The notes beneath the pieces are model-generated. The model ran no database searches, was not told the origin of the DNA, and worked only from the letters and a program-made list of their open reading frames with translations. This document shows, in pieces, positions 1-20,853 of a stretch of 37,527 nucleotides of DNA. Made by a program: the position numbers and the translations under genes. Numbering within the stretch: position 1 is the first letter of the stretch; every line of letters begins with the position of its first letter. This stretch comes from a virus, in the IMG/VR virus record IMGVR_UViG_3300002835_000494, positions 1 through 37,527 of that record. One strand, given 5' to 3'.

Positions 1-141
1 ATAATATCCACTCACCACATTTGAAATGAATGTGTTGGTGGTCCATCTGGTGTTAGCAGCATCATAAACGTATTGGGCACCTGTCGATGCGTAAACGTAT
101 ACCTGCTTATCTACTGGTGATGACGGAAAATTTAATGGCAT
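1..141 (-). CDS. Tail-fibre-like protein, N-terminal part only (cut by left window edge)
   Basis: The frame opens with ATG at 141 and stays open for 47 codons to the window edge, so the 3' part is missing. The product begins MPLNFPSSPVDKQVYVYAST and continues with QYVYDAANTRW. This is the same N-terminal module that opens the fibre proteins starting at 5711 (MALTFPSSPVDGQLY) and 4272 (MALSFPNSPTDGELY): a hydrophobic strand, a P-S/N-S-P turn, then Y-hydrophobic-Y/W-D-S/A and a Trp. AGGA stands 4 nt before the ATG, and the stop of the preceding gene ends at 157. By analogy it is a virion fibre or adhesin subunit; its tip domain lies outside the window. The module match is seen directly, while the role is inferred. 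Confidence 0.8.
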   Translation of the reverse strand, partial: MPLNFPSSPVDKQVYVYASTGAQYVYDAANTRWTTNTFISNVVSGYY

Positions 142-156
142 AGTATCCTATTTATC

Positions 157-465
157 TTACGGTTTTGGGTATTTATCTTTAACCGCTTGAATGGCGTCTG
201 CCCATGTCGTGGTACCGTTGATCTTGTCCCAATACTGCATATCCATCTGGTCAGCCAGTGATGGATAAGCCTTAGCACGATCTCGCTGATACTGCTTGGC
301 TTCCCATTCGGCCTGTAATCTATCGGCTTCCGCTTCTAACTCTTCCAGTGATGGTTTTGGTTTTGTATTACCTGGTAGCCAGTCAAGACCGTCATATGAG
401 TCGCCGCTAAGAACCCACTGTGCATCTTGATATAGTGATGCTAATGCTTTTGTTAAGTCTTTCAT
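157..465 (-). CDS. Small tail-fibre assembly/chaperone-like protein (102 aa)
   Basis: This is a small, acidic, Trp/Tyr-rich soluble protein with a helical centre (residues about 38-65, rich in Glu/Ala/Gln). Its C-terminal segment reads YPSLADQMDMQYWDKINGTT and ends in VKDKYPKP. The Y-P-S-(L/I)-A-(D/E)-Q pattern followed by an amphipathic helix is familiar from small proteins encoded beside tail-fibre genes in many phages, where they are usually called fibre assembly or putative chaperones. Its neighbour at 475-804 has the same length and layout and the same KYPKP ending, so the two look like diverged duplicates. It follows its neighbour by 9 nt and precedes a fibre gene. No signal peptide or membrane segment is visible. 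Function is inferred from family resemblance and position. Confidence 0.65.
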   Translation of the reverse strand: MKDLTKALASLYQDAQWVLSGDSYDGLDWLPGNTKPKPSLEELEAEADRLQAEWEAKQYQRDRAKAYPSLADQMDMQYWDKINGTTTWADAIQAVKDKYPKP

Positions 466-474
466 AATTTCCTC

Positions 475-804
475 TTATGGCTTTGGATATTTTGCTTTAA
501 CAGCCAGACAAGCATCAATGTATGCTTGTACCTGTGCCTGATCATCTTTAACAATTCCGTCAATATAATCTCTAATATCTGGATACTCATTCGCTCTTAG
601 TCTGGCATACTCATAAGAGTACCACAAATCACTAAGTCTATTCATTTCTTGCTCAATATCAGCATCCGATAGAACATTACCATCATGGAAAGTAACTACA
701 CCTTCAGAACTGATAGCAAACTGAGCACCTGGTTTCAATGATCTAATAGCATTGAACTTTAGATTTCTAATCATCTTTTCGGTTAGGTCATCGATGCTAT
801 ACAT
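475..804 (-). CDS. Small tail-fibre assembly/chaperone-like protein, paralogue (109 aa)
   Basis: The N-terminal half (residues 1-50) is unlike the 157-465 product. The second half has the same architecture: a charged helix with LWYSYEYARLRANEYPDIRDYI, then an acidic spacer, then CLAVKAKYPKP at the extreme C-terminus. The R-A-(K/N)-x-YP core and the V-K-x-KYPKP tail align with the neighbouring gene, so this is a probable tandem paralogue. Its ATG overlaps the stop of the upstream fibre gene as TAATG at 804, suggesting coupled translation with the protein it may help fold. It is cytoplasmic by appearance. The chaperone role is an inference; a structural role cannot be excluded. Confidence 0.6.
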   Translation of the reverse strand: MYSIDDLTEKMIRNLKFNAIRSLKPGAQFAISSEGVVTFHDGNVLSDADIEQEMNRLSDLWYSYEYARLRANEYPDIRDYIDGIVKDDQAQVQAYIDACLAVKAKYPKP

Positions 805-1334
805 TATGTGCCAATCTCCATTACAGTATGCATTTGTGCGTAGTAAGTACCACCGTTACCACCGAAGTGTTGTGCGTTAGAGTTGTTGAAACGTGCCGAA
901 CATCTAAATGTTACTGAAGTTCCAACAGCAATACCTAAAGCGCCGGATGACATATTCATACTGCTAACATAATACTTATCGATAGCGACAGCATTATAAT
1001 TTTCATGTAATGCAGGATATCGAATAACTGTCCAGCTTACTCCGCCGTTTGTCGAATACTTAACACCAAGACCAACACCAAAAGCGGCACTGTTAGTATC
1101 ATCCGAATTAAACTGTGCAGAGATGAAGAATGAACTGTTTGTTCCTCTTGTAGTAAGCTGCACGTCCATCCAAGACATATCCATCTCCGACTGACTACCC
1201 CAAGAACCCCAAGAATAGTTTGCATTGGTGTTTTTGACTTGTAGTATATGACCAGGTATATAAACACCTGAACCAGAACTCTTGGCGTAAATATAATCAA
1301 CGTTTGCTTGGTCTACTCTTAGAATACCTGGCAT
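804..1334 (-). CDS. Small tail-fibre/adhesin-like protein (176 aa)
   Basis: Begins MPGILRVDQANVDYIYAKSS, followed by GVYIPGHILQVKNTN. It is beta-rich, full of Ser/Asn/Gly/Tyr, and ends VMEIGT. The YxPGHIxQVxNT segment matches MYLPGHIIQVVNT in the next gene upstream (1338-1913). The (W/F/M)-E-I-(G/A)-x C-terminus recurs in the products of 1338, 1910, 4272 and 8765, so this belongs to that set. The middle (an S-S-F-F-I-S-A-Q-F strand and a V-G-L-G-V-K-Y-S strand) is diverged. No enzyme motif is visible. Most likely it is a trimeric fibre-tip or decoration subunit. The family call rests on terminal modules rather than the whole sequence. Stop-start coupling (TAATG) links it to the gene that follows. 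Confidence 0.7.
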   Translation of the reverse strand: MPGILRVDQANVDYIYAKSSGSGVYIPGHILQVKNTNANYSWGSWGSQSEMDMSWMDVQLTTRGTNSSFFISAQFNSDDTNSAAFGVGLGVKYSTNGGVSWTVIRYPALHENYNAVAIDKYYVSSMNMSSGALGIAVGTSVTFRCSARFNNSNAQHFGGNGGTYYAQMHTVMEIGT

Positions 1335-1337
1335 ATC

Positions 1338-1913
1338 TTAACCTGCTATCTCGAATAGTGTGATTGAACTTGTTCCTCTTTCATAACTACTACTGGTAGT
1401 GGCATTGACACATCGGTTGGTATACATAGTAAGACTATCGCTACTATTGACCGTTACTTGATATGTTAATGATGAAACTGTTGCCGGAGAATCGTAATAA
1501 TCATAAAAACACGTTTCAGGTGTTGAATCCGCATTCTCTCCAGTATAAGCGATGGCTGCCATATGAATGCCTATAGGTAAAGAACCGGGCTGCGGCGGCT
1601 GTCCTATCAATGTTCCGTTTCTTTTTATATTCCAACATACATTTTGTGTGCTGCCTTGTGAAGAAAACTCTCCGAACCATCTGACAGTCATGTAAATCTT
1701 ACTATTAACGCTTTTGGGTGTTATAGATGCGCTTAGACCTGTAACATCTGTATATGTATTATATGATGCGGGAAGACTTTGAGAGAAAGGATTCTTCAAA
1801 TAAGTATTAACAACCTGAATGATATGTCCAGGTAGATACATAGTGGTGGCAGAAGGAACCGTAATGGTTGTTCCTGTTCTTGCGTCAAGGTTATCGACTT
1901 TTAAGGTACTCAT
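1338..1913 (-). CDS. Small tail-fibre/adhesin-like protein, ITPxS/EIA family (191 aa)
   Basis: The N-terminus MSTLKVDNLDARTGTTITVP is followed by MYLPGHIIQVVNT, a beta-strand pattern typical of phage fibre subunits. Around residues 57-75 it has VTGLSASITPKSVNSKIYMTV, the family hallmark also present in the 1910 product (ITGMSLAITPTSSNSKI) and the C-terminal part of the 4272 product (ITGLSVNITPTSSTSK). It ends SSITLFEIAG. The conserved core probably forms a compact beta-sandwich tip domain that trimerises. The ATG overlaps the stop of the upstream paralogue (ATGA, 4 nt). It would be a virion component, possibly receptor binding. The family link is well supported; the biological role is inferred. 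Confidence 0.75.
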   Translation of the reverse strand: MSTLKVDNLDARTGTTITVPSATTMYLPGHIIQVVNTYLKNPFSQSLPASYNTYTDVTGLSASITPKSVNSKIYMTVRWFGEFSSQGSTQNVCWNIKRNGTLIGQPPQPGSLPIGIHMAAIAYTGENADSTPETCFYDYYDSPATVSSLTYQVTVNSSDSLTMYTNRCVNATTSSSYERGTSSITLFEIAG

Positions 1914-2461
1914 ACACCAATCTCCATTAGTGTGATACTTGAGGCAACTCTGGCATTATATGCGTTGTTTTCATTAGGTCTCATGTAGTTTACGGCAATG
2001 GCATATGATGATGACCAAGGAACAGCAGCCTGTAAGCTATACGTTACAGAACTTGCGGTTGCAGGATTGTCCAGATACATGGCATGACCATAGTTCAAAC
2101 CATAGTCACCCGGACCACCATTACCATAAGCGTGAAACAAAGCCTGTGTTTGATTTCCATATAAATCACCATAGTATATTTTTGTTCCATTTCTATTCAA
2201 ATAGATATCACCATGAGCATAAATTGACCATTTAAGATCGATAACAACCAAAATCTTACTATTTGAAGATGTTGGTGTAATGGCAAGAGACATACCTGTT
2301 ATATCAACCGGTGTGGTTGATGACGTTGACCAGGCATCAGTCTTTACAGTTTGAACTACCTGAACTACGCCACCTGGAGCATACAACTTATGTCCAGTAG
2401 GAACAGTAATACGGTTTGTAGGCGAAACACCTCTAAGGTTTTGAACTGTTAAGGTACTCAT
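1910..2461 (-). CDS. Small tail-fibre/adhesin-like protein, ITPxS/MEIG family (183 aa)
   Basis: Paralogue of the 1338-1913 product. MSTLTVQNLRGVSPTNRITV corresponds to its MSTLKVDNL start, LYAPGGVVQVVQT to MYLPGHIIQVVNT, and DITGMSLAITPTSSNSKILV to the family core. It ends SSITLMEIGV. Between core and end lies a Tyr/Gly/Asn-rich stretch (residues about 95-160, including GDYGLNYGHAMYLDNPATAS) that differs completely from the paralogues and could be the variable receptor-contacting surface. It is joined to both neighbours by ATGA overlaps. A TATAAATA octamer lies about 53 nt upstream, inside the preceding gene. It is likely a trimeric virion fibre tip. Confidence 0.75.
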   Translation of the reverse strand: MSTLTVQNLRGVSPTNRITVPTGHKLYAPGGVVQVVQTVKTDAWSTSSTTPVDITGMSLAITPTSSNSKILVVIDLKWSIYAHGDIYLNRNGTKIYYGDLYGNQTQALFHAYGNGGPGDYGLNYGHAMYLDNPATASSVTYSLQAAVPWSSSYAIAVNYMRPNENNAYNARVASSITLMEIGV

Positions 2462-2931
2462 ATAATCACCCAGCTTGCGTTATTATCCACTGTCACAGTG
2501 ACGTTGTTAGCGATATTTATAGGACCAATACTCATTTCGTTATATGTGTTAGAGATAGTGTAATTACTGGCGATGTTTGGTGTGTTTCTGTAGTTAGGAA
2601 CAGCGGCCAGCGTGACGGTACTTGAAGTATTTATAGCGCCGTCAACGTCCAATTTAGATGTAGGTGAAGTGGTGCCAATACCTACATTACCAGTTGATAT
2701 TATATTTCTAACTGTAAGAGTGTTTGCTACCTTATTATAAACCAAACCAGGTGAACCATTAGAAATTCCAGCATCATTAAACATCACCTGTGTATTAGAT
2801 GATGTGTCAGATAGTTTTGATGTAAGAACAGTCAACCAAGCACCTACAGAGGCATTGTAGTAATAGACAATGCCGTTAAGTGTATATTGCTGTTGATCTA
2901 CTGGGTTAGATGGAAAGTCTAACGATGCCAT
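2458..2931 (-). CDS. Modular tail-fibre-like protein with GIGTTSP module (157 aa)
   Basis: Three modules follow one another. Residues 1-35 form the short fibre N-terminus (MASLDFPSNPVDQQQY, then GIVYYYNASVGAWL), a divergent relative of the MALTFPSSPVDG module. Residues about 75-92 carry GNVGIGTTSPTSKLDVDG, a pattern common in phage tail fibres, where it often sits in beta-helical shafts or before a tip or chaperone domain. The last 28 residues are a C-terminal module, MSIGPINIANNVTVTVD ending WVII. That module recurs in the products of 8520, 10766 and the giant fibre. The upstream stop is 3 nt before the ATG, and its own stop overlaps the next ATG. No catalytic motif is visible. Probably a compact fibre tip. 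Confidence 0.75.
   Translation of the reverse strand: MASLDFPSNPVDQQQYTLNGIVYYYNASVGAWLTVLTSKLSDTSSNTQVMFNDAGISNGSPGLVYNKVANTLTVRNIISTGNVGIGTTSPTSKLDVDGAINTSSTVTLAAVPNYRNTPNIASNYTISNTYNEMSIGPINIANNVTVTVDNNASWVII
2514..2521 (-). promoter_or_regulatory. Late-promoter-like octamer before the 183-aa adhesin gene
   Basis: A full TATAAATA match about 53 nt upstream of the ATG at 2461, within codons for Pro-Ile-Asn-Ile of the preceding gene. A second copy stands at 2628-2635 in the same gene. Both could be chance in A/T-rich fibre codons. Confidence 0.25.
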
Positions 2932-2934
2932 TTG

Positions 2935-3207
2935 TTATCCTGTTGGTAGTGTAGTTGCTTCTTCATTACGTTGCGCTGCGGTCTTAACCCAACCATTAGC
3001 AAATGCAGCGGCTACGATTTCATCTTTTGATCCTGGAATACCAAGACCTTGTTCTAAGAACTTTGCTACTGCTATCTGGACGATTTCGTCAATAGCAATA
3101 CGGGCTCTTTCATGTGCGGCATTCTGAATCCATTCATTAACGTCGGCAGCGGCATACTCCATAGCCTTGGTTTCTGTTTCAGTGTAAGTAATTGTGTAAG
3201 TTGTCAT
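2935..3207 (-). CDS. Conserved small phage protein of unknown function (90 aa)
   Basis: MTTYTITYTETETKAMEYAA is followed by a long amphipathic helical stretch (VNEWIQNAAHERARIAIDEI, then VQIAVAKFLEQG), then IPGSKDEIVAAAF. It has no signal peptide, membrane segment or metal site. I recall similar small helical proteins beside tail-fibre genes in marine myoviruses, but I know no assigned function. Its composition (charged, alanine-rich, helical) contrasts with the Ser/Asn/Gly-rich beta proteins on either side. That suggests an assembly factor or accessory protein rather than an adhesin; this is only inference. Its ATG is preceded by AAAGGA with good spacing. Confidence 0.65.
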   Translation of the reverse strand: MTTYTITYTETETKAMEYAAADVNEWIQNAAHERARIAIDEIVQIAVAKFLEQGLGIPGSKDEIVAAAFANGWVKTAAQRNEEATTLPTG

Positions 3208-3219
3208 GTTTGTTTCCTT

Positions 3220-4272
3220 TTAGCCTAATAGATATCCTTGAAACCAATTGTGCATTCCTGATGCATTTAATGTAGTTGAACCACTACCACCAGGTCTAAC
3301 ATCAACTGTGTCGCCGGCACTAAGATAGATTATGTGTGTGATCTTGGCTTGTTTGTGTCCAGTCCAGTTACCTGAATAACCACCGTATATATCAGGATTT
3401 GCTCCATTAATCCACAATCTAATGTCTGCAATGGCGGTACTACTCTGCGTTAGAAAACATACATCGAACCAATATAGACCTGCAATCGGTGCGGTAAATT
3501 TATATGTTGATGTATTGAAATGTCCGCCATTATTGGTTACCGACGTTCCAAAAGCGATGACTGTACCATCGTTGTAAGTGGTTCCTTCTGACCATGAGGG
3601 TCTCATTTTAAAATATGGTTGATATGGTTTAGTAACACGACCAGACCCATCGATCTTCATTCTGTTTAGGTTTTCAGTGTAGAAGTTATGACTTCCATTT
3701 CCTGTACCCTGATAGGCATGATACTGCATATCAGCGGATGGACCAACACCAATGCTATAGATATCAATTGGTGAGTTGTCATAAAACACCAGCTTCATCT
3801 TGTCAGCGGTGTTTGAACTTGCTCCACCAGCACCAGGATAATCATTAGCAAATCTGATTTTAAGAGGATTTACAACTTGTCCTGTCTGTCCAATAATAGT
3901 TGTATTGCCACTGACAGTCAGACTACCAGCAAACGTTCCACTCGTATTCTGCAAAGCTGTATTTGCTCTACCGTATGCAGCATTGGCAGTATTGAACACC
4001 AAACCAGCCGTCTGGTCAGCCGGATTTGCTTCAACCCATTGACTGGAGTTGCCGTCGTTATAATAGACGAACAGACGACCGTAATCCTGACTCCACCACA
4101 ACTGTCCAACTACAGGAGAACCAGGCTGCGTAGATGACACAGTGATTGTCTGTGTGAATGTTGACGTTGACTTCCAGACAGTATTAGCAGAATCCCACAC
4201 CCAGCGATTGCCAGATGTGGTGTCTGTGTAAAGTTCTCCGTCAGTAGGTGAGTTAGGAAATGATAGTGCCAT
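3220..4272 (-). CDS. Tail-fibre-like protein with C-terminal C1q/TNF-like tip (350 aa)
   Basis: The chosen start is the ATG at 4272, which overlaps the upstream stop as TAATG and gives MALSFPNSPTDGELY like its paralogue. An ATG six codons earlier would add MGDSTV, which is only the tail of the upstream gene read in another frame. Modules in order: N-terminal P-N-S-P module; PGSPVVGQLWWSQDYGRLFV with QWVEANP (about 47-82); NTANAAYGRANTALQNTSGT linker plus SGNTTIIG; a fibre domain containing DGSGR; then residues about 215-350 resembling the C1q/TNF fold. That last domain is marked by YKFTAPIAGLYWFDV, LWINGANPD and LSAGDTVDV before a hydrophobic terminal strand (F-Q-G-Y-L-L-G). C1q folds are compact trimers, which suits a fibre tip that binds a surface ligand. 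Ligand unknown. Confidence 0.8.
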   Translation of the reverse strand: MALSFPNSPTDGELYTDTTSGNRWVWDSANTVWKSTSTFTQTITVSSTQPGSPVVGQLWWSQDYGRLFVYYNDGNSSQWVEANPADQTAGLVFNTANAAYGRANTALQNTSGTFAGSLTVSGNTTIIGQTGQVVNPLKIRFANDYPGAGGASSNTADKMKLVFYDNSPIDIYSIGVGPSADMQYHAYQGTGNGSHNFYTENLNRMKIDGSGRVTKPYQPYFKMRPSWSEGTTYNDGTVIAFGTSVTNNGGHFNTSTYKFTAPIAGLYWFDVCFLTQSSTAIADIRLWINGANPDIYGGYSGNWTGHKQAKITHIIYLSAGDTVDVRPGGSGSTTLNASGMHNWFQGYLLG

Positions 4273-5711
4273 TACTGTGCTATCTCCCATACAGTAATTG
4301 ATGATGCGCTTCTACCGTGATATGTTGATCCACTGTCTGCATTGTTAGGGCTGCCATTCATGTTGAACGCAGGAGATTGAACTCTTACTTGTACCTTATA
4401 TGTCACCGTAGAAGTTGTTCCGGGAGATTCTAATCCGGAACAACCGAATCCTCCTGGAGAATGATCAGCATTAAATGCCAGTCCGTTAATAACCATAGCA
4501 ACTTTTTCTCTGCTACCACTACTATTACCGTTGATGTTTAGTGCATCTGATCCGTTGGCCAAAACTCTAATACTACATGCGTAGTCAAGGTTATATGCAC
4601 TGGTAGTTGCTCTACCGAACGAAACCATAACAAAAACTTTACTTGTTGATGATGTGGGTGTTATGTTGACTGATAAACCAGTGATGTCTACCCATGATGT
4701 AGATGTTGTGCTAAAAAAGTCTCCGTTTCTAGCAGACACCACCTGTAGAATTGAACCAGCAGGCATAGAACCCTTAGTAATACCACGAGAAGCAACATCT
4801 AATCTTCCTGTAGGTGATGATGTACCAATACCAACATTACCACCAAGAGGATTCAGTATTAGACTATAAGTTGCTGTAGATGGATTGGAAAATGATGACT
4901 GAATCCATTGTGAAAATGTACCGGGATACTGACCAATAGCAAGAAAGTTTCCTCCTGTGCCACTTAATAGCGTATGAGCATTGGCTGTAATATCGGTGCT
5001 ATTTGGATTACCTTGCGATACTTCAAATCCTATTCTACCTTTACCTACAACATCTAGTTTATACTGTGGAGAATTGGTACCGATACCAAGATCACCAGCA
5101 TTAGTTAGTCGCATACGTTCTGAACCACCGACTTGACTGAAAATCAAATCAGGTGTAGAACTATTAGATGCACCAAGATAATAGTATCCACCAGTTGACG
5201 AATGATATCCAAGACCTAATGCATATACTTCATTATTGGCAATTTGAAACGATCTACCACCGACTACATTAAACTTACCATATGCAGTTGATGTACCCAC
5301 ACCAAATGTACCGGATACAGATAAATTGCCGCCGAACCAAACACCACTTGTGTTAGCAAGAGCAGTATTAGCCTTATTGAAAGCAGGAGCAACCGCCAGA
5401 ATAGAAGCAGCGTTCGCATAACCAGCTACGGTTGAACTATCAAACGAACCAACCGCAGGAACGTTTTCTACCCACTGTCTGGAATCACCATCGTCATATA
5501 GTATGAATGTTCTACCAGTATTGGTGTTGTACCACATAGCACCAGGAGCGACGGAGGCTGATGGTGGTGGTGCGGTACCAACAGTCATACCAACGTTGTT
5601 AGACGCATACTTCCACAACCCCTTACCGGAGTCATAGATGTATCGATTACCAGTTCCGGAATCGATGTATAACTGACCGTCAACTGGTGACGATGGAAAT
5701 GTTAATGCCAT
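4272..5711 (-). CDS. Multi-module tail-fibre-like protein (479 aa)
   Basis: Modules in order: MALTFPSSPVDGQLYIDSGT N-terminus; PGAMWYNTNTGRTFILYDD with RQWVE (about 57-86); APAFNKANTALANTSG linker; LSVSGTFGVGTS; two GIGT modules, LGIGTNSPQYKLDVVG (about 205-220) and VGIGTSSPTGRLDVA (about 290-305); then the ITPxS family tip from about residue 318 (AGSILQVVSARNG, DITGLSVNITPTSSTSK) ending SSITVWEIAQ. It therefore looks like the stand-alone 1338/1910 proteins fused to a longer shaft. Neighbours share the first modules (3220) or the last (1338, 1910, 8765), so domain shuffling is evident. A putative tail-assembly chaperone gene lies immediately upstream. Virion fibre with a probable receptor-binding end. 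Confidence 0.8.
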   Translation of the reverse strand: MALTFPSSPVDGQLYIDSGTGNRYIYDSGKGLWKYASNNVGMTVGTAPPPSASVAPGAMWYNTNTGRTFILYDDGDSRQWVENVPAVGSFDSSTVAGYANAASILAVAPAFNKANTALANTSGVWFGGNLSVSGTFGVGTSTAYGKFNVVGGRSFQIANNEVYALGLGYHSSTGGYYYLGASNSSTPDLIFSQVGGSERMRLTNAGDLGIGTNSPQYKLDVVGKGRIGFEVSQGNPNSTDITANAHTLLSGTGGNFLAIGQYPGTFSQWIQSSFSNPSTATYSLILNPLGGNVGIGTSSPTGRLDVASRGITKGSMPAGSILQVVSARNGDFFSTTSTSWVDITGLSVNITPTSSTSKVFVMVSFGRATTSAYNLDYACSIRVLANGSDALNINGNSSGSREKVAMVINGLAFNADHSPGGFGCSGLESPGTTSTVTYKVQVRVQSPAFNMNGSPNNADSGSTYHGRSASSITVWEIAQ

Positions 5712-5712
5712 T

Positions 5713-6087
5713 TTATCCCTTTAGATAGTCGGGCCAAACTGCTTCAATCTCTTCCACTGTAGTTGCATTAAGTAACTCAGGTAGTTTGGTAACGTCTCTT
5801 AGTAGCTGCTTCTTAGTAGCAATCTCGGTAGCCTTGGCTGTGTCCTGTGTTTCCAAGGCTCTAAAGTAATCTGCATCCAGCTTGGTCATGAGAGGTGATC
5901 TTGCTTCTCTCATACGACGCTTCCAGACCTCTTTGGCCTTTTCAACATCGATGACAACAATCTGGTTATGGTTCTCGTCCTCTGACAAGGCCCATGCGTC
6001 ACTGAAATAACGGTTCTGTGGGAATGAATACTGTGCGGTATCAAGGGTCTGACCGTCAACCACTACATATGTTTTAACTTCTGACAT
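5713..6087 (-). CDS. Putative tail-fibre assembly chaperone (124 aa)
   Basis: A short beta-rich N-terminus (MSEVKTYVVVDGQTLDTAQY) precedes a charged helical body: VWKRRMREARSPLMTKLDA, then ADYFRALETQDTAKATEIA, then LLRDVTKLPELLNATTVEE and IWP. The order W-K-x-x-(R/K)-(R/M)-x-x-(A/R), a break, a D-A/L-D-x-x-(F/W)-x-x-A helix, then L-R-D-(V/L)-(T/P)-x-L-P resembles the phage tail assembly chaperone (APC) family that accompanies fibre genes in many phages. It is cytoplasmic and sits 1 nt upstream of the 479-aa fibre gene. AGAGGA precedes the ATG, and an AATAAATA octamer lies just before that. The call is from remembered family pattern without a search. Confidence 0.65.
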   Translation of the reverse strand: MSEVKTYVVVDGQTLDTAQYSFPQNRYFSDAWALSEDENHNQIVVIDVEKAKEVWKRRMREARSPLMTKLDADYFRALETQDTAKATEIATKKQLLRDVTKLPELLNATTVEEIEAVWPDYLKG

Positions 6088-6106
6088 TATGCTAATCCTC
6101 TTGATC

Positions 6107-6114
6107 TATTTATT
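6107..6114 (-). promoter_or_regulatory. Late-promoter-like octamer (AATAAATA) before the assembly chaperone gene
   Basis: One mismatch from TATAAATA, overlapping the endonuclease stop codon (TGG-TAA-TAAATAG) and about 20 nt before the chaperone start at 6087, with AGAGGA between. It resembles the 18325 and 29212 arrangements. Confidence 0.3.
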
Positions 6115-6619
6115 ACCATCGGGCAAACTCACCGTGATACTTTATGGCAGCTTGCTTATATGCATCATGCGCTTGCTCTGCCGTTTCGAAGTATCCCAAA
6201 TAAATTCTCTTATTAAAGACTGTAATCTCGGAAGTATATGGTTTCTTTAGCTTTTGCTTAGATTTAAAAACGCCTTTATAACCACACGAGTTGACTCTTG
6301 AGACCGAGTTCCTGGCGTTTTCAAACTGCGTAGCCAATCTTAGATTGTCTTTTCTATTGTTAGAACGATCACCATCAATGTGATCAACAATCTTGTCAGG
6401 CCATATACCATTATGTAAAAAGTATGCTATTTGATGAGCGTGACAGTTGTGCTTATTGACTTTACCTCTTCGATATCCGTCAATCTCCGCTCCGAAAAGA
6501 CTGCCCATAACGGCTCGGTTACTTCTCGTCACCTTCCATATAACTTTACCATCCTCAACAATAAATGATTGTTCGATTAATGATAATGTTTCGTCACTTG
6601 GTTTATTAACTTTTTTCAT
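6113..6619 (-). CDS. HNH homing endonuclease with C-terminal AP2 DNA-binding domain (168 aa)
   Basis: A DNA-cutting, free-standing homing endonuclease by family resemblance. The HNH_3-type motif spans residues about 55-103: NCHAHQIAYFLHNG, then KIVDHIDGDRSNNRKDNLRL, then ATQFENARN, with His-58, His-78/Asp-80 and Asn-88 region residues matching the usual H-N-N arrangement. Residues about 110-168 are an AP2-type domain (YKGVFKSKQKLKKPYTSEIT, then RIYLGYFETAEQAHDAYKQA, ending GEFARW). The start at 6619 overlaps the preceding stop (ATGA); a start five codons earlier is possible. A TATAAATA octamer about 80 nt upstream could drive it. It interrupts the structural operon and is most likely a mobile passenger. 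No intron boundary is evident. Confidence 0.88.
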   Translation of the reverse strand: MKKVNKPSDETLSLIEQSFIVEDGKVIWKVTRSNRAVMGSLFGAEIDGYRRGKVNKHNCHAHQIAYFLHNGIWPDKIVDHIDGDRSNNRKDNLRLATQFENARNSVSRVNSCGYKGVFKSKQKLKKPYTSEITVFNKRIYLGYFETAEQAHDAYKQAAIKYHGEFARW

Positions 6620-7122
6620 GCAAGACGCCAGCAATCTCTATAAGTATTGTCTTGTGGTAACTGATCCCTCTTGACAATACGGAACATTTGTCTATTGTAT
6701 TTATATTTAGGATGCCATACTCTGGCTGGCATGTCCTTCATGATTAGGTACTCAATAGCCTCTTCTTCTGTCATAGGACCAATAGGCTTTGACATTAGAT
6801 ATTCTTTGTAGTCAAGAACCTTCTCCGAAACGATCCGCTTCTCCAGTCTGATTTGCTGGGACTCTAAGAAGGTGGTTTCGATCTTCTCACCATCTTCGGT
6901 TTCCAGTTCTAATTTCATATTGTGGTGATCTTCGATTGACGGAAGAATACCACCGTTAAGGGCGCAAGCCATCCATTCTGGTGATGCTACCATTTCCTTG
7001 ACTGGCGCATCTGGTTCGGCTGGATCTTCGAACACAACCACATAGTTTGGCTGCTTTGGTTCGAGGTTCTCGGCTGCCCATTGCAGTCTTGTGAACATAT
7101 CTACATTACTAAGATCAATCAT
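6616..7122 (-). CDS. Conserved phage protein of unknown function, possibly fibre-associated (168 aa)
   Basis: I do not recognise this family with certainty. An acidic soluble protein: MIDLSNVDMFTRLQWAAENL, a hydrophobic strand NYVVVFEDP, a charged central part, then the helix MTEEEAIEYLIMKDMPARVW and the basic C-terminus RQMFRIVKRDQLPQDNTYRD ending CWRLA. The ending resembles the (I/L)-P-x-(D/N)-(R/N)-T-(F/Y)-R-(N/D)-x-W motif seen near the end of small proteins encoded beside phage tail fibres, so a fibre-assembly role is a guess. The start at 7122 is preferred over the ATG at 7128 because AAGGA is then 6 nt upstream rather than abutting. Its stop overlaps the homing endonuclease start. Confidence 0.6.
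   Translation of the reverse strand: MIDLSNVDMFTRLQWAAENLEPKQPNYVVVFEDPAEPDAPVKEMVASPEWMACALNGGILPSIEDHHNMKLELETEDGEKIETTFLESQQIRLEKRIVSEKVLDYKEYLMSKPIGPMTEEEAIEYLIMKDMPARVWHPKYKYNRQMFRIVKRDQLPQDNTYRDCWRLA
6698..6705 (-). promoter_or_regulatory. Late-promoter-like octamer inside gene upstream of the homing endonuclease
   Basis: TATAAATA lies within codons for Tyr-Lys-Tyr of the 168-aa protein, about 80 nt before the HNH-AP2 start. T4 homing endonuclease genes are often under late promoters, so this is a reasonable candidate, but it could equally be codon choice. Confidence 0.35.
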
Positions 7123-7131
7123 TGTCATTCC

Positions 7132-7701
7132 TTATTCATAGAAACAGCTTAAAGTTCCTGCATCGAAAGTATCGCCTGTGAAAACACGAAGCTGTGTTAG
7201 TGTTCCACTTAATGATTTTGAAAATCCAAATGTTCCTGTGTGAGCACCGTCGCTGCGACCATAAACTCCATTTACCACCCATAAGTTAGTAGAAGAACTG
7301 ATAAGAGTAACGATTGCTGTTCCGTGAGTGGAAGCACCTGCTGATGCTGTATAAACTATTTGTGCGTATGCCGTTGGATTTAATCCACCTGGCGATGATC
7401 CACTAACAATAGATGATATCGAACCAGAATAACCAGTGGTTTCAATACCAGAAGCTGTGCCCAATCTTATAGCAACGTCATTTGTGCCGCTGGTACTCAT
7501 AGAAGAAAAACCAATTGTAATACGTCTAACCCATGAAGGTATATTAGTAAAGTCGATATTCTGACCACTGACTGATACAGGAGAAAAACTAACCAAAGTG
7601 CCAACTCTCGCAATACCATTCGTAGGCGTCTGCGGATCCACAATCGTCGCTGTGTTAGATGCTGTAAGTGTGCCGAGTCCGGCTGCTCTAATGGTTGACA
7701 T
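7132..7701 (-). CDS. Small tail-fibre/adhesin-like protein, DFTGIP/DTFDAG family (189 aa)
   Basis: After a short N-terminus (MSTIRAAGLGTLTASNTATI) comes the family core: VSVSGQNIDFTNIPSWVRRI, TIGFSSMSTSG, and a final strand pair LTQLRVFTGDTFDAGTLSCFYE near the C-terminus. The same signature (DFTGIPVGVKRITVVFNGIS and GADTFDAGSVNVLYE) closes the product of 9412-9933. I recall this C-terminal domain from many phage fibre or tip proteins. The Gly/Ser/Thr-rich centre differs between the two and may hold the variable binding loops. Virion-associated adhesin or tip is the likely role. SD-like AAGGA is near the end and serves the following gene. Confidence 0.75.
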   Translation of the reverse strand: MSTIRAAGLGTLTASNTATIVDPQTPTNGIARVGTLVSFSPVSVSGQNIDFTNIPSWVRRITIGFSSMSTSGTNDVAIRLGTASGIETTGYSGSISSIVSGSSPGGLNPTAYAQIVYTASAGASTHGTAIVTLISSSTNLWVVNGVYGRSDGAHTGTFGFSKSLSGTLTQLRVFTGDTFDAGTLSCFYE

Positions 7702-7710
7702 AATCTATCC

Positions 7711-8112
7711 TTATCTGAAAACGGCTGTGCAAATTGTGGGTAGATCATACCAGCTACCTGCCCAACCATAGCAACCCACGCTTAAACTGGTTGATAATAC
7801 TCCATTTGTAAAATGAATGGCGTTTTGTGTTCCATTACCATTTCCTGCGCCGTCATCTTTACAAGTTAATTGACCCGAAGCGAAACTGTCGTTCATAGCA
7901 TTTGTAAAGTTGGTAGAAAACTGACCTGTGCCATTATCAGTTAGGCTACTGACATTGAAACTAGCATTAACTGTCGCTGTTCCAGTACCGTTAAAGTTAC
8001 ACCAACTTTTAGCAACACCATATACAACCTGTGGTCCAGTAACAGATGGTCTACTCTGTCCTGTAGTCTCTCCTGTTTTCCATGTAAAGTTGTCTGCTTT
8101 GATGTTTGACAT
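7711..8112 (-). CDS. Small tail-fibre/adhesin-like protein, W-x-N-(F/Y)-N-G family (133 aa)
   Basis: One of four paralogues within 3 kb (the others are at 8122, 9944 and 10352). N-terminus MSNIKADNFTWKTGETTGQS; family core from about residue 35: AKSWCNFNGTGTATVNASFN, VSSLTDNGTGQFSTNFTNAM. The C-terminal part is variable and Gly/Trp/Cys-containing (VGCYGWAGSW), ending TAVFR. The core reads as a beta-sandwich domain starting at W-x-N-(F/Y)-N-G and running through (N/S)-V-S-S-(L/V)-T-x-x-G-T-G. It is known to me as a common phage fibre end domain without a named ligand. It lies 9 nt after its paralogue's stop. Likely a trimeric tip. Confidence 0.75.
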   Translation of the reverse strand: MSNIKADNFTWKTGETTGQSRPSVTGPQVVYGVAKSWCNFNGTGTATVNASFNVSSLTDNGTGQFSTNFTNAMNDSFASGQLTCKDDGAGNGNGTQNAIHFTNGVLSTSLSVGCYGWAGSWYDLPTICTAVFR

Positions 8113-8121
8113 ATTTTACCC

Positions 8122-8520
8122 TTAACCAACTAATAAGGTGTGAACTAGAGTATAATTATAGAATTGGATATTACCTGATGAAAGGCCATATCCTGAATAA
8201 AAACGATAAGATGATGTTGCTAATATATATGGATGTGCGCCTCCATCATCATCTGCTAGGTTACTACTGGTATCACCTACTGACGATCCTATACAATAAT
8301 TGCTATTAGACACAGAAGTTGTTAGATTGTTTGTATAATCTCCGGTACCGTTTCTGGTAACAGAAGAAACATTAAAACTTCCATTAACTATTGGAGTAAG
8401 GCCGTTATAGTTACACCACGCTTTGGTTAGCTGACCAATCTCTGTGCCGCTGGTGTTTCTGAATACCGTGGGTGTCGATTGTTCTGACTGTAGAACGTCT
8501 GCTTTTACTGTGCCTGCCAT
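8122..8520 (-). CDS. Small tail-fibre/adhesin-like protein, W-x-N-(F/Y)-N-G family (132 aa)
   Basis: The start at ATG 8520 is chosen because it overlaps the upstream stop as TAATG and yields MAGTVKADVLQSEQSTPTVF, matching paralogue starts; an ATG five codons earlier is possible. Core: LTKAWCNYNGLTPIVNGSFN, VSSVTRNGTGDYTNNLTTSV. It then diverges: the ending is Ser/Tyr-rich (YRFYSGYGLSSGNIQFYNYT). Compared with the neighbouring family member at 7711, the core is conserved while the last about 50 residues are unrelated, the pattern expected of a scaffold carrying a variable receptor-facing part. Function inferred. Confidence 0.72.
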   Translation of the reverse strand: MAGTVKADVLQSEQSTPTVFRNTSGTEIGQLTKAWCNYNGLTPIVNGSFNVSSVTRNGTGDYTNNLTTSVSNSNYCIGSSVGDTSSNLADDDGGAHPYILATSSYRFYSGYGLSSGNIQFYNYTLVHTLLVG

Positions 8521-8765
8521 TATAGAACCGTCCATGTAGCGCCATTGGCGACTGTCACAGTTCTGTTATTAGCGACTGTGATAGGACCAGGCGTCATAAA
8601 GTTGTATGTATTGCTAACAGTAACATCAACATTGATAGTTGGTGTGCCACCAAAGAATGGTAGAGTTGTTAGTTCAATATCCGATGAAATGCCAGCAGAG
8701 TCTAACGAGATAGCGGCGTTAGGATTAGATGGGTGTTGTAGGTTTACGAGTTTCAGTGTGGACAT
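8520..8765 (-). CDS. Very short fibre-like protein with shared C-terminal module (81 aa)
   Basis: The start at 8765 (TAATG with the upstream stop) gives MSTLKLVNLQHPSNPNAAIS; the longer in-frame start would add MGDCTV, which is the upstream coding end in another frame. The N-terminus resembles the MSTLKVDNL starts of other array members. The C-terminal about 30 residues, YNFMTPGPITVANNRTVTVA ending ATWTVL, are the same module that ends the products of 2458, 10766 and the giant fibre. The protein thus consists of little more than an N-terminal beta segment plus this module. It could be a minimal fibre cap or a trimerisation peptide. No other function is visible. Confidence 0.65.
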   Translation of the reverse strand: MSTLKLVNLQHPSNPNAAISLDSAGISSDIELTTLPFFGGTPTINVDVTVSNTYNFMTPGPITVANNRTVTVANGATWTVL

Positions 8766-9379
8766 TACTGTGCAATCTCCCAAACGGTCATCTGGATTCT
8801 AGCAGATGAACCCGTATAATTATATAAAGCATTACCAGTTCCGTTGATAATTACTGTGCCGGCGTCGATACCACCTCTTACTGAAATAGTATCGGTAGTT
8901 GTTCCCCATGATGCAAAAGAGTTATTAAGAGATAGGCACGACATATTCAGATTGCCAGCAAAATGACTATACAAAGGTGATCCGCTGTTTGCCGCAATAA
9001 AATTACCACCTCTCCATAGAGCAAGCCATACTCTATCACCGCTGTTTGCTTCTTCTGACAATGCAATAGTGCTGGTCTGTACCAGAATTAAACTACTTGC
9101 ACTTAATGGTGTAAAGTTTAGGGAGAAGATTTGAACACCATTAGTAATTGTGGAAGGAGCACCAGCCGTACCACCTGACAAAACGCCATCAAGAGTATTC
9201 ACCTGCACTTGAATGACACAACCCGTAGGCAATGCAGCAGCCGGAATAACTCTGCTGGTAGCACCTGTTGTAATCAGATTGCCATTTTCAGCAGGCGCTT
9301 TAATAGTATATGTTGACGCCGTTGAAGGAACATCAATTGATACTGAACCACCACCTGTAGAGTTTAGCTTAATTGGCAT
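8765..9379 (-). CDS. Small tail-fibre/adhesin-like protein (204 aa)
   Basis: MPIKLNSTGGGSVSIDVPST, then STYTIKAPAENGNLITTG, is a fibre N-terminal pattern (K-L-x-S-x-G-G-x-S-V, followed by a T-x-P-A-x-x-G-x-L-I-T-T-G turn) that I have seen in many phage fibres. From about residue 53 comes LPTGCVIQVQVNTLDG, counterpart of the PGHIIQVVNT strand in the 1338 family; FSLNFTPLSASSLILVQTST parallels the ITPxSxxSKI core. It ends RIQMTVWEIAQ. It is therefore a divergent member of the EI-(A/G) family. Interior loops rich in Asn/Ser/Gly/Trp may contact the receptor. Virion role inferred. Confidence 0.72.
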   Translation of the reverse strand: MPIKLNSTGGGSVSIDVPSTASTYTIKAPAENGNLITTGATSRVIPAAALPTGCVIQVQVNTLDGVLSGGTAGAPSTITNGVQIFSLNFTPLSASSLILVQTSTIALSEEANSGDRVWLALWRGGNFIAANSGSPLYSHFAGNLNMSCLSLNNSFASWGTTTDTISVRGGIDAGTVIINGTGNALYNYTGSSARIQMTVWEIAQ

Positions 9380-9411
9380 ATTCTATCTCTCAAATCTCTT
9401 TGTATTTAGTC

Positions 9412-9933
9412 TTACTCATAGAGAACATTGACTGAACCAGCATCAAACGTATCAGCACCATTTGTAGTCAACCTTAAACGATCAACTGCACCTGATAATG
9501 TAACGCCGCCCGCACCAAAATGTATTCCCTGATAAGACCCGCCTGTAATTGCAACACTACTTTGTGATGTCCAACTGTTGCTTCCCAAAAGGGTTATGAA
9601 CATCGAACCATACAATATATTACCGGCAATACCAGTCCATCCAGCCACTGATGTTACGGGAAACCCCGTAGATATTGTACCACCAGAAGTACTACTGTAT
9701 GCACCATAACCAGAGACACAGCTATAACCACTAGTCTGCAAACTTCCAGACCCAAGTTGAACTTGTATGATAGCCGTTCCGGTTGCCGAAATGCCGTTGA
9801 ATACAACAGTAATTCTCTTAACACCAACAGGAATACCAGTGAAATCGACAGCGGTACCAGAGGCATTCTGTGCCGTCATGCTATTCAGAACACCAGTTGT
9901 AAGTAGATTGTTGCCGTCTAATACGATTGCCAT
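9412..9933 (-). CDS. Small tail-fibre/adhesin-like protein, DFTGIP/DTFDAG family (173 aa)
   Basis: Paralogue of the 7132-7701 product. MAIVLDGNNLLTTGVLNSMT opens the protein, followed by SGTAVDFTGIPVGVKRITVV, FNGISATGTAIIQVQLGSG, then a Gly/Ser/Tyr-rich variable middle (residues about 65-140) and the closing GADTFDAGSVNVLYE. Both family members end with the same strand turn (G-D/A-D-T-F-D-A-G) within a few residues of the C-terminus, so the tip interface is conserved and the middle is free to vary. It is separated by 32 nt from the following gene, with an ACTAAATA octamer in the gap. Likely a trimeric adhesin. Confidence 0.75.
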   Translation of the reverse strand: MAIVLDGNNLLTTGVLNSMTAQNASGTAVDFTGIPVGVKRITVVFNGISATGTAIIQVQLGSGSLQTSGYSCVSGYGAYSSTSGGTISTGFPVTSVAGWTGIAGNILYGSMFITLLGSNSWTSQSSVAITGGSYQGIHFGAGGVTLSGAVDRLRLTTNGADTFDAGSVNVLYE

Positions 9934-9943
9934 TGTCTATTCC

Positions 9944-10342
9944 TTAGTTACCGAATACGTTTGCTGATAAAAACGGACAATCATTTCCCGCCGAGGACAT
10001 ATTGGACGATTGAACTGTAGCTGTGGATACAGTGTTTGTGTTATTTCTACCAGAGGCAAGAGTTACGTTTGTAGTACCGGAAGTCCATTCTGCGGTTGCA
10101 ATCGGCGCATAATTAGCATCCGACATGCTGTTCGTAAAATTCAAAACATAGATACCTGTGCTACTTTTTGTAACACTACTTATATTATAAGATGCTCTAA
10201 CGGCTGGAGTTCCGCCGCCATTGTAGTTTAACCATCCTAAAGAATTAGTCGTCTTACCATTACTCTGTAACTTCACAATACCACTACCATCTGCGGAAGT
10301 GATAAGGCCGTTTGTTGCTTGTGCGTTGATTGTTACTGGCAT
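9944..10342 (-). CDS. Small tail-fibre/adhesin-like protein, W-x-N-(F/Y)-N-G family (132 aa)
   Basis: Third family member. N-terminus MPVTINAQATNGLITSADGS followed by GIVKLQSNGK; core LGWLNYNGGGTPAVRASYNI, SSVTKSSTGIYVLNFTNSMS, DANYAPIATAEW. The middle (about 35-85) matches the 7711, 8122 and 10352 products. The last 45 residues (Thr/Asn/Ser-rich, ending FLSANVFGN) are unlike them. The N-terminal N-x-x-x-x-x-G-L-I-T-S-A-D-G-S-G pattern differs from the paralogues, showing that heads and tails have been exchanged around a constant core. Probable fibre tip; ligand unknown. Confidence 0.75.
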   Translation of the reverse strand: MPVTINAQATNGLITSADGSGIVKLQSNGKTTNSLGWLNYNGGGTPAVRASYNISSVTKSSTGIYVLNFTNSMSDANYAPIATAEWTSGTTNVTLASGRNNTNTVSTATVQSSNMSSAGNDCPFLSANVFGN

Positions 10343-10351
10343 TGTTATCTC

Positions 10352-10756
10352 TTATCTGTGAACCGAGACATGTAAATAGTTGCTGTCTGTGGCTGCATTA
10401 TTACTATCTCTTGTTTCCAAACTTGCCCTTCCTGATGTTTGTGTTCCTGCGGCTGTATCGCCACATCCAGGATAGGCGCCGCCATAATTGTTTGGCTGTG
10501 CGTTAGCGTTTGTTGCATGTTGTGAATCGGTCATTGAAGTTGTAAAAGCGATAAGATAGTAACCAGCAGTTCCTCCACGAGTAACACTGGATACATTGAA
10601 ACTCACTCTTACCGCAACAGAACCTGATACACCGTTAAAGTTTACCCACGACTTACAGATTTGACCTATCTCTACACTGTTACCATCTCTAAAAACAGGA
10701 GCAGTAGCCGCTACTGAACCTTGTACCGTATCGCTATAAATCGTTCCGTATGGCAT
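10352..10756 (-). CDS. Small tail-fibre/adhesin-like protein, W-x-N-(F/Y)-N-G family (134 aa)
   Basis: Fourth family member, starting MPYGTIYSDTVQGSVAATAP and FRDGNSVEIGQICKSW. The segment P-x-F-R-(D/N)-x-x-(S/G)-x-E-I-G-Q-(I/L)-x-K-(S/A)-W is shared closely with the 8122 product (TVFRNTSGTEIGQLTKAW), so those two are the nearest pair. Core: VNFNGVSGSVAVRVSFNVSS, VTRGGTAGYYLIAFTTSMTD. The end (DSNYLHVSVHR) is variable. It lies 9 nt after the stop of the preceding gene, each cassette carrying its own SD-like GGAGA. Likely virion tip protein. Confidence 0.75.
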   Translation of the reverse strand: MPYGTIYSDTVQGSVAATAPVFRDGNSVEIGQICKSWVNFNGVSGSVAVRVSFNVSSVTRGGTAGYYLIAFTTSMTDSQHATNANAQPNNYGGAYPGCGDTAAGTQTSGRASLETRDSNNAATDSNYLHVSVHR

Positions 10757-10765
10757 AATCTCTCC

Positions 10766-11059
10766 TTATAGAACCACAAATTTACTATTAGCTGACACAG
10801 TAATAGACACACCGTTAGGTAGTGTTAAAGGACCTACTGCCAATGCGCTGGTGCTGGCAGGAATTGTATATGATACTGCCAATGTCTGACCATTAGTTCT
10901 AATAGGAAAGTCACTTGACCACTGTGTACCATTATAAGTTTCCAGTGTCTCTAATGTAGTATTAAAGCCTGTTTGCCCCTCGACTGGCGATGCTGGTCTG
11001 GTTGCTGTAGACCAAGTCGGAAATGTCGCACCAGTAGTTCCGTTTAATACGATTGGCAT
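10766..11059 (-). CDS. Short fibre-like protein with shared C-terminal module (97 aa)
   Basis: First small gene after the giant fibre. N-terminus MPIVLNGTTGATFPTWSTAT; then RPASPVEGQTGFNTTLETLE and TYNGTQW, a phage fibre pattern (R-P-x-x-P-x-x-G-x-x-G-(F/Y)-N-T-x-x-x-x-x-E-x-Y-x-G-x-x-W) also found near the end of the giant fibre (RPGTAANGMIRYNTTLNTFE). The C-terminal ALAVGPLTLPNGVSITVSAN ending KFVVL is the module shared with the 2458, 8520 and giant-fibre products. In effect it is a free-standing copy of the giant fibre's last about 90 residues, suggesting duplication of the fibre end. Role inferred as a tip. Confidence 0.72.
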   Translation of the reverse strand: MPIVLNGTTGATFPTWSTATRPASPVEGQTGFNTTLETLETYNGTQWSSDFPIRTNGQTLAVSYTIPASTSALAVGPLTLPNGVSITVSANSKFVVL

Positions 11060-17959: not shown

Positions 17960-18298
17960 TTACTTTGTTACCGATGGTGTTACGTATATAACTCCTTCAA
18001 TAAGTCTGGTCACCGTTTGTGTGGTGTCAGTAACTTTAACATCAAACAGGTAAGAACCTGCACGTAGATTTGCAGTATTAGACGAGTTCATTGTAAGAAG
18101 AAACTCGCCGTTTGCGGGATCATATACCGAAGCTGATAGATATGCGTATGCGTTAGGAGATACTAACGATCTTCTTAGTGCGCTACTAACAGTATAACCT
18201 AAAACATTCTGAGGAAGATTTGTATTGTCATCATTGAGGTTAATGGTAGTGGAGAAATCGCTCCCTTGGTCAATGTAAAGTTCTACGTATTCGGCCAT
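17960..18298 (-). CDS. Small BppU-N-like/Ig-like structural protein (112 aa)
   Basis: MAEYVELYIDQGSDFSTTIN is followed by LGYTVSSALRRS, SVYDPANGEFLLTMNSSNTA, LRAGSYLFDVKVTD, TRLIEGVIYVTPSVT. This is the order of strands in the small proteins related to the N-terminal domain of phage baseplate upper protein BppU: I-x-(Q/K)-G-(S/T)-D-(F/W), L-x-G-x-x-(V/A), D-P-x-(N/T)-G, L-x-A-G-x-Y-x-(F/Y)-(D/E)-(V/I), G-x-(I/V)-x-V-x-P-x-(V/I)-T. Such proteins usually anchor fibres. Its place directly before the giant fibre (3 nt gap), behind the best late-promoter match in the window, supports a connector role. The fold call is from memory; the connector role is inference. Confidence 0.7.
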   Translation of the reverse strand: MAEYVELYIDQGSDFSTTINLNDDNTNLPQNVLGYTVSSALRRSLVSPNAYAYLSASVYDPANGEFLLTMNSSNTANLRAGSYLFDVKVTDTTQTVTRLIEGVIYVTPSVTK

Positions 18299-20046: not shown

Positions 20047-20853
20047 TTACCTCACATCTGGTAGGTATGAACCGTATAGATTTGTACCGTCACATACGAA
20101 TGAGAACAAATCACGACGATTTGCTGTGGAGGTGAGAGTTGGTGCAACACCAGCAGGCCATTTGAATACGGAGTTCCAAGTTAGTGATCTGCCACCTGAA
20201 CCATCTTGTACCACATGGAGTATATATGTACCAATTTTGAGATTGGTCGGTGCAGCCATTGTTCTAGAACCACCTAGTGTAACTGTAGCAACTGAACCAA
20301 GAGAAACGTCCCAGTTAATTGTCGAACCGTCGGTTAGTGTTTGGTTGGCAATGTTAGCATCAATTGTAACGGTGCCGGTGAATGTTGGACTAATCTTAGT
20401 GGCATATGTAGCAATTGAATATGTATTTACGGCATTTGACCATGCATTAGCTGACGCACCAACTGTGTTTGACCATGAGTTAGCAGAACGTGATACAGTA
20501 TTTGACCAACCATTTGACGCCAGACCTACGGCATTTGACCATGCGTTAGCAGAAGCAACCGAAATCTGTGCATTGCTGTTAGCAGCAGTCACATAAGATA
20601 TAGCAAGTCCATGAACTGTATTAACAACTAGAGCCGAAGCAACGTTTCCAGAAGCGGAATCATTGACCGATGAAGATGTTAGAATGTTGATAGTAAGATT
20701 ACTTGATCTAGAAGCGAATGATGGAATAGATACTGTATTAGCATTTGATGTATTACAGAAAATCAACTTGTCGTTTAGAGCAACAACGGTTGAGTTTGTG
20801 ACTGTTCTCCAATAATCAAATGTATCTGTGAGTGCGACGTTTGCTAATGCCAT
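20047..20853 (-). CDS. Tail-fibre protein with hendecad repeats (268 aa)
   Basis: A beta-rich N-terminal half (MALANVALTDTFDYWRTVTN, VVALNDKLIFCN, VNTVHGLAISYVTAANSNAQ) leads into four consecutive 11-residue repeats at about 99-142: SANAWSNAVGL, ASNGWSNTVSR, SANSWSNTVGA, SANAWSNAVNT. These match the GANNWANTVG repeats of the giant fibre. Then comes TFTGTVTIDANIANQTLTDG and a C-terminal fibre domain with LGGSRTMAAPTNLKIGTYIL, HVVQDGSGGRSLTW, FSFVCDGTNLYGSYL. The last domain (G-G-x-R-T-(M/L)-x-x-P-x-N, Q-D-x-x-G-x-x-x-(L/V)-x-W) is common in phage fibres. Probably a short trimeric fibre. Confidence 0.78.
   Translation of the reverse strand: MALANVALTDTFDYWRTVTNSTVVALNDKLIFCNTSNANTVSIPSFASRSSNLTINILTSSSVNDSASGNVASALVVNTVHGLAISYVTAANSNAQISVASANAWSNAVGLASNGWSNTVSRSANSWSNTVGASANAWSNAVNTYSIATYATKISPTFTGTVTIDANIANQTLTDGSTINWDVSLGSVATVTLGGSRTMAAPTNLKIGTYILHVVQDGSGGRSLTWNSVFKWPAGVAPTLTSTANRRDLFSFVCDGTNLYGSYLPDVR

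Follow-up and report, generated by a model that had tools for sequence, protein, structure and literature searches.

How a phage uses a long run of small adhesin-like genes packed behind a single giant fiber gene is the question raised by the first 11,059 nucleotides of IMG/VR virus record IMGVR_UViG_3300002835_000494, of which we analyzed positions 1 to 37,527 (hereafter "the window", 37,527 nucleotides long). A sequence-only reading of this DNA had described a combinatorial array of fiber genes built from a few modules and had proposed a reservoir of tips that are co-displayed, stacked or recombined onto fiber shafts. Our analysis favors, with a probability of about 0.68, a set of expressed mini-fibers that each consist of a short N-terminal "address" and a C-terminal "head", that would sit on a multi-head (branched) adhesin and that are diversified by homologous recombination between phages.

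Genes are named by their left-end coordinate in the window (e.g., w3220), all array genes lie on the minus strand, and gene calls come from a simple predictor written for this analysis. The comparison loci (L012, L033, L051, etc.) are metagenomic contigs, and since several of them derive from the same or related samples, locus counts do not represent independent events.

An array of small genes with shared modules

The sequence-only reading had counted at least 14 short coupled genes downstream of the giant fiber, and we find 21 genes in positions 1 to 11,059 with intergenic gaps of -4 to +32 nt. Neighbors overlap by TAATG at 475, 3220, 8122 and 8520 and by ATGA at 1338, 1910 and 6113, and most remaining gaps measure 9 to 12 nt. 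Three starts were revised (the 3220 gene to 4272, the 8520 gene to 8765 and the 8122 gene to 8520) because the new positions yield TAATG overlaps that are conserved in related loci. About sixteen of the genes look like adhesins, with modules in common at pairwise E values of 1e-4 to 1e-24. The description as an array of fiber genes therefore holds for these sixteen but not for w157 and w475, which are chaperone-like (as w5713 possibly is), nor for w2935, w6616 of unassigned role or the endonuclease w6113.

Direct phmmer comparison among the window proteins recovered every module family that had been listed from the letters alone, and the similarities are far beyond chance. The PSSPVD module connects w1 to w4272 (7e-9), w3220 (6e-9) and w2458 (2e-5), and the LWW module connects w3220 to w4272 (1e-24) and to two places in the giant fiber (2e-12). 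The ITP core is common to w1338 and w1910 (3e-15), to w1910 and the C-terminus of w4272 (1e-14) and to w804 and w1338 (2e-5); w8765 joins this family by profile only (1e-26 to 1e-30). Further families are the WxN(F/Y)NG core of w7711, w8122, w9944 and w10352 (5e-9 to 8e-16), the DFTGIP pair of w7132 and w9412 (8e-17) and the GP...W-V end (w2458 with w8520, 3e-15; w10766 with the giant fiber, 4e-7; w2458 with w10766, 2e-6). Module sharing was also seen in L020-L026 and most of L072-L141, which were left out of the gene-by-gene array mapping.

Fixed addresses and replaceable heads

When same-position genes were compared by identity per block of 20 amino acids, most variable genes proved to have a conserved N-terminus and a replaced C-terminal head (L051, L033 and L052). 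Successive blocks of w8765 are 100% and 55% identical to L051 and then fall to 15-45%; w7132 drops from 100% and 95% to 20-70%, and w3220 from 85-100% across its first 100 amino acids to 20-60%. The addresses defined in this way are about 20-45 amino acids long and position-specific, each generally matching its own-position partner better than other positions. When 17 arrays or array parts were compared with the window, address order within four blocks (A to D) gave 64 concordant pairs out of 65, a score matched by none of 2000 shuffles. The order of the blocks themselves differs by lineage, with D-B-C in L015 and L019 and only A-B in L052.

Heads, in turn, move between addresses. At L051 13617-14189, a D3 (w804-type) address carries a D2 (w1338-type) head, and at L052 2700-3101, a B3/A2-like N-terminus carries an A2 (w10352-type) head. 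At B1, B2, C1 and C4, even the fold class of the head switches on one and the same address. The notion of combinatorial cassettes thus stands for the heads but not for the N-termini, which are position-specific and ordered. Conserved N-terminal parts joined to variable C-terminal parts are what characterizes branched complexes of several receptor-binding proteins. The array shares this feature, and its heads would be the receptor-binding parts.

Exchange, gain and loss among relatives

Gain, loss and swap of single cassettes between conserved flanks, for which a synteny comparison had been proposed, were found in L033, L012, L051 and L052, the first three showing exchange, gene-sized or internal to a gene, between flanks of 95-100% identity. 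Related phages with an identical, unvarying array would have refuted the sequence-only reading, and this is not the pattern seen. The giant fiber protein of L033 matches that of the window to about 98% and is followed by different w10766, w10352 and w9944 heads before complete DNA identity resumes at the w9944 stop codon. L012 is 99.7% identical over positions 1-4842 and has a different internal cassette in w4272, at 4842-5077 between the two GIGTxSP repeats. In L051, gene order is unchanged and stretches of 95-99% DNA identity alternate with replaced pieces, and in L052, the w5713 homolog directly adjoins the neck genes so that half of the array is lost. Because the L016/L051 variants were found again in contigs from other samples (L017 and L018), assembly chimeras are unlikely to be the sole cause of these patterns.

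In near relatives, the C-terminal 411 amino acids of the giant fiber are stable (85-100% identity) while the tips vary. The same ends as in the small genes flank long repeat shafts in L013, in proteins of 934 and 1,266 amino acids, and the small genes therefore look like complete shaft-less fibers, not broken-off tips.

Predicted folds of the heads

We modeled two proteins, w1910 and w9944, with AlphaFold, each as a monomer. The w1910 model (pLDDT 89.7, built on an alignment of 45 sequences) has matches in Pgp3 (its TNF-like domain), the lectin PLTL and the N-terminal lectin domain of BC2L-C; with PLTL, a TNF-like lectin with bound blood-group sugar, TMt is 0.77 (probability 1.00, root-mean-square deviation 2.7). 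The predicted structure has the TNF-like jelly roll of PLTL and the BC2L-C N-domain, and a TNF-like lectin fold is therefore predicted for the ITP family, which by sequence corresponds to the C-terminal domain of orf22 in 9efk, a solved 18-chain protein (E 6e-36). The head of w3220 is C1q (1.7e-10), and the w9944 model (WxNYNG; pLDDT 76) gave weak fold matches to the tailspike ends of phiAB6 and Pam1. Other heads are predicted to be tail-fiber or tailspike-end domains, and the lectin-type fold of the w1910 model suggests that heads may bind glycans.

As a separate observation on the TNF heads, the codons for their conserved C-terminal (M/W)-E-I-(A/G) (ATGGAGATT, TGGGAGAT) double as a potential Shine-Dalgarno sequence for the next overlapping gene, and the starts where they may act in this way are those of w1338, w475, w3220 and w8520.

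How the array may be used

For most array genes, there is a Shine-Dalgarno-like sequence or an overlap with the preceding gene, and all 12 occurrences of a late-promoter-like motif (NATAAATA) are on the coding strand. Array genes that can be tested are under purifying selection, the ratio of nonsynonymous to synonymous substitution rates (dN/dS) being mostly below 0.4 where dS is estimable, including in heads at 66-72% identity.

From these data we infer a set of expressed, putatively trimeric mini-fibers in which a short position-specific address would be joined to a receptor-binding head, mostly of TNF/C1q-like lectin fold or of tail-fiber or tailspike-end type. Given that both sequence and order are conserved among the addresses, every protein probably has a docking site of its own, which may be on a branched adhesin together with the giant fiber and an LtfC-like factor, and dedicated chaperone-like proteins would assist. 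Ordinary homologous recombination among phages that infect the same cell would exchange the heads while the addresses stay in place, with homology supplied by conserved N-termini, internal repeats and neighboring genes, and such replacements would shift the host surface glycans that are bound. Co-display of tips is likely. The bolder idea that one virion shows at least 15 distinct small lectin-type heads on a branched adhesin, with short position-specific N-terminal peptides as a docking code that leaves the heads exchangeable without disturbing assembly, is one that we regard as possible rather than probable.

Several points weigh against this reading. Only a single head class was seen at A2, B3-B5 and D1-D3, though the heads there are highly divergent, and the addresses could be shaft starts instead of docking peptides. 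They have low-to-moderate AlphaFold confidence, which in both models is lower over residues 1-20 than in the head; a segment that folds only upon assembly would look like this, and the finding is compatible with docking but not proof of it. The fold assignment of WxNYNG is weak, as sequence comparison of this domain with the PDB gave nothing convincing and no PDB fold match fell below 0.001. Selection is unmeasured on several heads because dS is saturated or undefined. Finally, no docking partner was identified.

The most serious rival is that the mini-fibers are alternative adhesins of which each virion receives a subset, either because their expression differs or because they compete for a small number of sites. 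Internal TATAAATA motifs (at 6705 and 2635/2521) could indeed divide transcription, and T4-like baseplates have few fiber sites. However, distinct ordered addresses suit separate sites better than competition for a single one, and we consider this rival unlikely. It is somewhat less likely still that some products decorate the capsid or tail rather than serving as host-recognition tips: the DFTGIP family weakly matches a phage cement protein (7eel, E 0.024), but the location in a fiber island, the tail-fiber PHROG matches, the replacement of heads and the TNF/C1q folds all speak against it.

Least probable of all is a silent or semi-silent reservoir whose tip genes donate to the giant fiber end in a shufflon- or gene-conversion-like manner, because the array and giant fiber do have LWW, GIGTxSP and GP-end modules in common but the longest exact repeats are 20 nt between them and 14 nt inside the array, most genes have start sites and translational coupling and (where measurable) evolve under purifying selection, the giant-fiber end stays stable while tips change, and a 172-kb relative (G001), whose record is possibly incomplete, yielded no reverse transcriptase, resolvase or integrase. 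The earlier proposal that tips are recombined onto fiber shafts is unsupported on the same grounds, since DNA identity blocks with the giant fiber were not found. A diversity-generating retroelement was likewise set aside as no reverse transcriptase was seen in G001, and a shufflon or invertible fiber system as neither a site-specific recombinase in G001 nor crossover repeats in the array were found.

Genomic setting and accessory genes

All long genes of the 37.5-kb record lie on the minus strand, and their downstream order runs from baseplate genes over the VrlC-like gene, several fiber-related genes and the giant fiber to the 21 array genes at the window edge (Table 1). By gp6, the closest cultured relatives are cyanomyophages, Methylophilales phage Melnitz and the Pelagibacter phages Mosig and HTVC008M; judging by the related records that accompany it, we guess this virus of bacteria to be of freshwater type.

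Table 1. Features of the window, listed in the direction of transcription.
Feature	Coordinates	Strand	Remarks
gp25-like baseplate gene	34524		
gp6-like baseplate gene	32437		
Baseplate wedge gene	27860		
VrlC-like large baseplate protein, 1,998 aa	21848..27844	-	phrog_358; synteny with HTVC008M; fixed island boundary
LtfC-like (L-shaped fiber assembly family) protein	17960..18298	-	phrog_3304 1.4e-17; PF23926 1.9e-4, below cut-off
Giant fiber, 2,295 aa: NAxY/NSNW repeat shaft, LWW module twice, GP...WTVV end	11069..17956	-	
Address A1, GP-end head, 97 aa	10766..11059	-	72% in L033, 100% in L051
Address A2, WxNYNG head	10352..10756	-	phrog_11355 tail fiber; head replaced in L033, L051, L052
Address A3, WxNYNG head	9944..10342	-	AlphaFold model m72d940b6bec7
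Address A4, DFTGIP head	9412..9933	-	
Address B1, TNF/ITP-class head	8765..9379	-	C1q or other heads on B1 elsewhere
Address B2, GP-end head	8520..8765	-	C1q heads on B2 in L015, L019, L070
Address B3, WxNYNG head	8122..8520	-	same-position L052 gene has A2-type head
Address B4, WxNYNG head	7711..8112	-	
Address B5, DFTGIP head	7132..7701	-	
Conserved 168-170 aa protein, role unassigned	6616..7128	-	56-100% in relatives
HNH_3 + AP2 homing endonuclease	6113..6634	-	8e-16; separate insertion
Tail-fiber-assembly-like protein	5713..6087	-	phrog_20196; weak tail fiber assembly matches; dN/dS ~0.03 (testable part)
Address C1 fiber: LWW module, two GIGTxSP repeats, TNF/ITP head	4272..5711	-	
Address C2 fiber: LWW module, C1q head	3220..4272	-	long shaft-bearing forms in L013
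Conserved 90-aa protein	2935..3207	-	79-100% identity over aligned parts; dN/dS 0.00-0.20
Address C4, GIGTxSP and GP-end head	2458..2931	-	
Address D1, predicted TNF-like lectin-fold head	1910..2461	-	AlphaFold model m3507e9e0e1b0
Address D2, TNF-like head	1338..1913	-	D2 head type found on D3 address in L051, L068
Address D3, divergent TNF-like head	804..1334	-	
Chaperone-like protein (phrog_9114 family)	475..804	-	
Chaperone-like protein (phrog_9114 family)	157..465	-	
Start of conserved fiber-like gene, PSSPVD start, end like 20047-20853	1..147	-	closes array before neck genes

Gene 1 extends beyond the window. In L012, L051 and L068, this conserved fiber-like gene (260 amino acids in homologs) comes last in the array, with neck-type genes beyond it (Ad2 in L012; phrog_211, 8e-39). 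VrlC on one flank and neck genes on the other define the site of the host recognition cluster (HRC) of pelagimyophages and cyanomyophages (PMC7029224). The array has this position among T4-like aquatic phages as well as the hypervariability and fiber genes of an HRC, so the island as such is already known. At the array end of L067 (11350-12545), we noticed two additional small genes (196 and 198 amino acids; 'YPKRPGQIIEYL') with another head family.

The LtfC-like gene sits directly upstream of the giant fiber, is 88% conserved in L069 and encodes a candidate fiber attachment factor. The LWW module of w3220 and w4272 matches the C-terminal part of the same family, and together these similarities offer a lead on docking rather than a demonstration. 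Also upstream of the giant fiber, 18877-20040 encodes a 387-amino-acid, very Gly/His-rich protein with GG[T/H]GG runs, for which Pfam gave no family and which resembles collagen-like/polyglycine adhesins by composition only; 21048-21839, adjoining VrlC, has Hexapeptide/YdcK-type beta-solenoid repeats (Pfam 1.3e-9).

Among the non-adhesin array genes, w2935 is located among the C-block fibers in mapped arrays, has a homolog beside a TNF-head gene in phage DC33 and is a candidate fiber assembly factor. A gp57A-like identity, guessed from size and position, was dropped as Pfam, PHROG and NCBIfam gave no informative family. The w5713 product may be chaperone-like, and in a Pfam comparison of the chaperone-like KYPKP set, Phage_tail_APC was matched by one divergent member only. 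The w6113 endonuclease is a passenger, as it is cleanly missing from related arrays (junction w6628|w6097 in L051 and L052; the site is also empty in L018). Another HNH/NUMOD3 gene lies between neck genes at L012:7541-8206.

Relation to known systems and implications

Published HRCs share the VrlC-neck site, hypervariability and wealth of tail fibers with our array but were not described as ordered address/head arrays, and they also hold glycosyltransferases, none of which was seen in this window (PMC7029224). Metaviromic islands of marine phages contain a C1q gene near the tail fiber, with a conserved N-terminal and a hypervariable C1q part, next to XkdW-like and fiber assembly genes (PMC3909814). 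Such hypervariable fiber/C1q genes with conserved N-terminal parts were thus known before (PMC3909814, PMC7468147), but the metaviromic islands have single C1q genes, whereas the array here comprises about 16 genes, with their addresses in order and heads of several folds.

Two short arrays in cultured phages come closer. Prochlorococcus phage P-SSP7 has four free-standing TNF/ITP-head genes and a KYPKP-type chaperone-like protein downstream of gp17 (PSSP7_037-041), adjoining a fiber with a GP end; their N-termini are weakly like B1 and B2 in the same order (individually weak matches, shuffle p 0.007-0.05), but P-SSP7 differs in having four tips, one head class and a T7-like virion. Phage Melnitz (genes 192-196) has a C1q, a GP-end and two TNF-head genes with a chaperone-like neighbor, and its N-termini resemble D1 and D2 in order, more strongly than those of P-SSP7 (D2: 0/300 shuffles); this array, however, follows neck and sheath-stabilizer genes and has fewer tips.

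Branched adhesins provide the likeness in architecture, with conserved N-terminal docking and variable C-terminal receptor parts. In T5-like phage DT57C, the first 45 amino acids of LtfB are the proposed docking part to LtfA (PMC4728585), which is held by an LtfC ring (PMC10713586); TSP1-4 of Ackermannviridae form branched complexes (PMC11414711), and fourteen putative depolymerases of phiKp24 were modeled in a hyperbranched complex (PMC9700779). The systems of Ackermannviridae and phiKp24 rely on large Gp10-like domains and on tailspikes with enzymatic heads, in contrast to the 20-45 amino acid addresses and small lectin-type heads described here; Gp10-like/XD docking domains were not named in general PHROG/Pfam scans, which included no specific comparison with them. 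The statement that no characterized system has so many free-standing tips in one operon must be tempered in view of phiKp24 and the short P-SSP7 and Melnitz arrays.

The island, its hypervariable fiber/C1q genes and modular fibers in general are already known. As far as papers and databases were searched, new aspects are that about 16 adhesin genes are organized by short addresses, conserved and ordered, whose heads can be exchanged, and that the ITP family is predicted to belong to the TNF-like lectins. If co-display is true, this would be among the most multivalent phage adhesins known. With exchangeable heads, the virus would be able to alter or broaden the range of bacterial surfaces to which it attaches. 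A hypervariable island of hypothetical proteins thereby turns into a readable grammar of fixed, ordered addresses and exchangeable heads, and since the predicted lectin-type heads hint at the kind of receptor and the addresses are few in number and small enough to be tried as docking peptides, the way in which abundant aquatic phages follow the changing surfaces of their hosts becomes testable.

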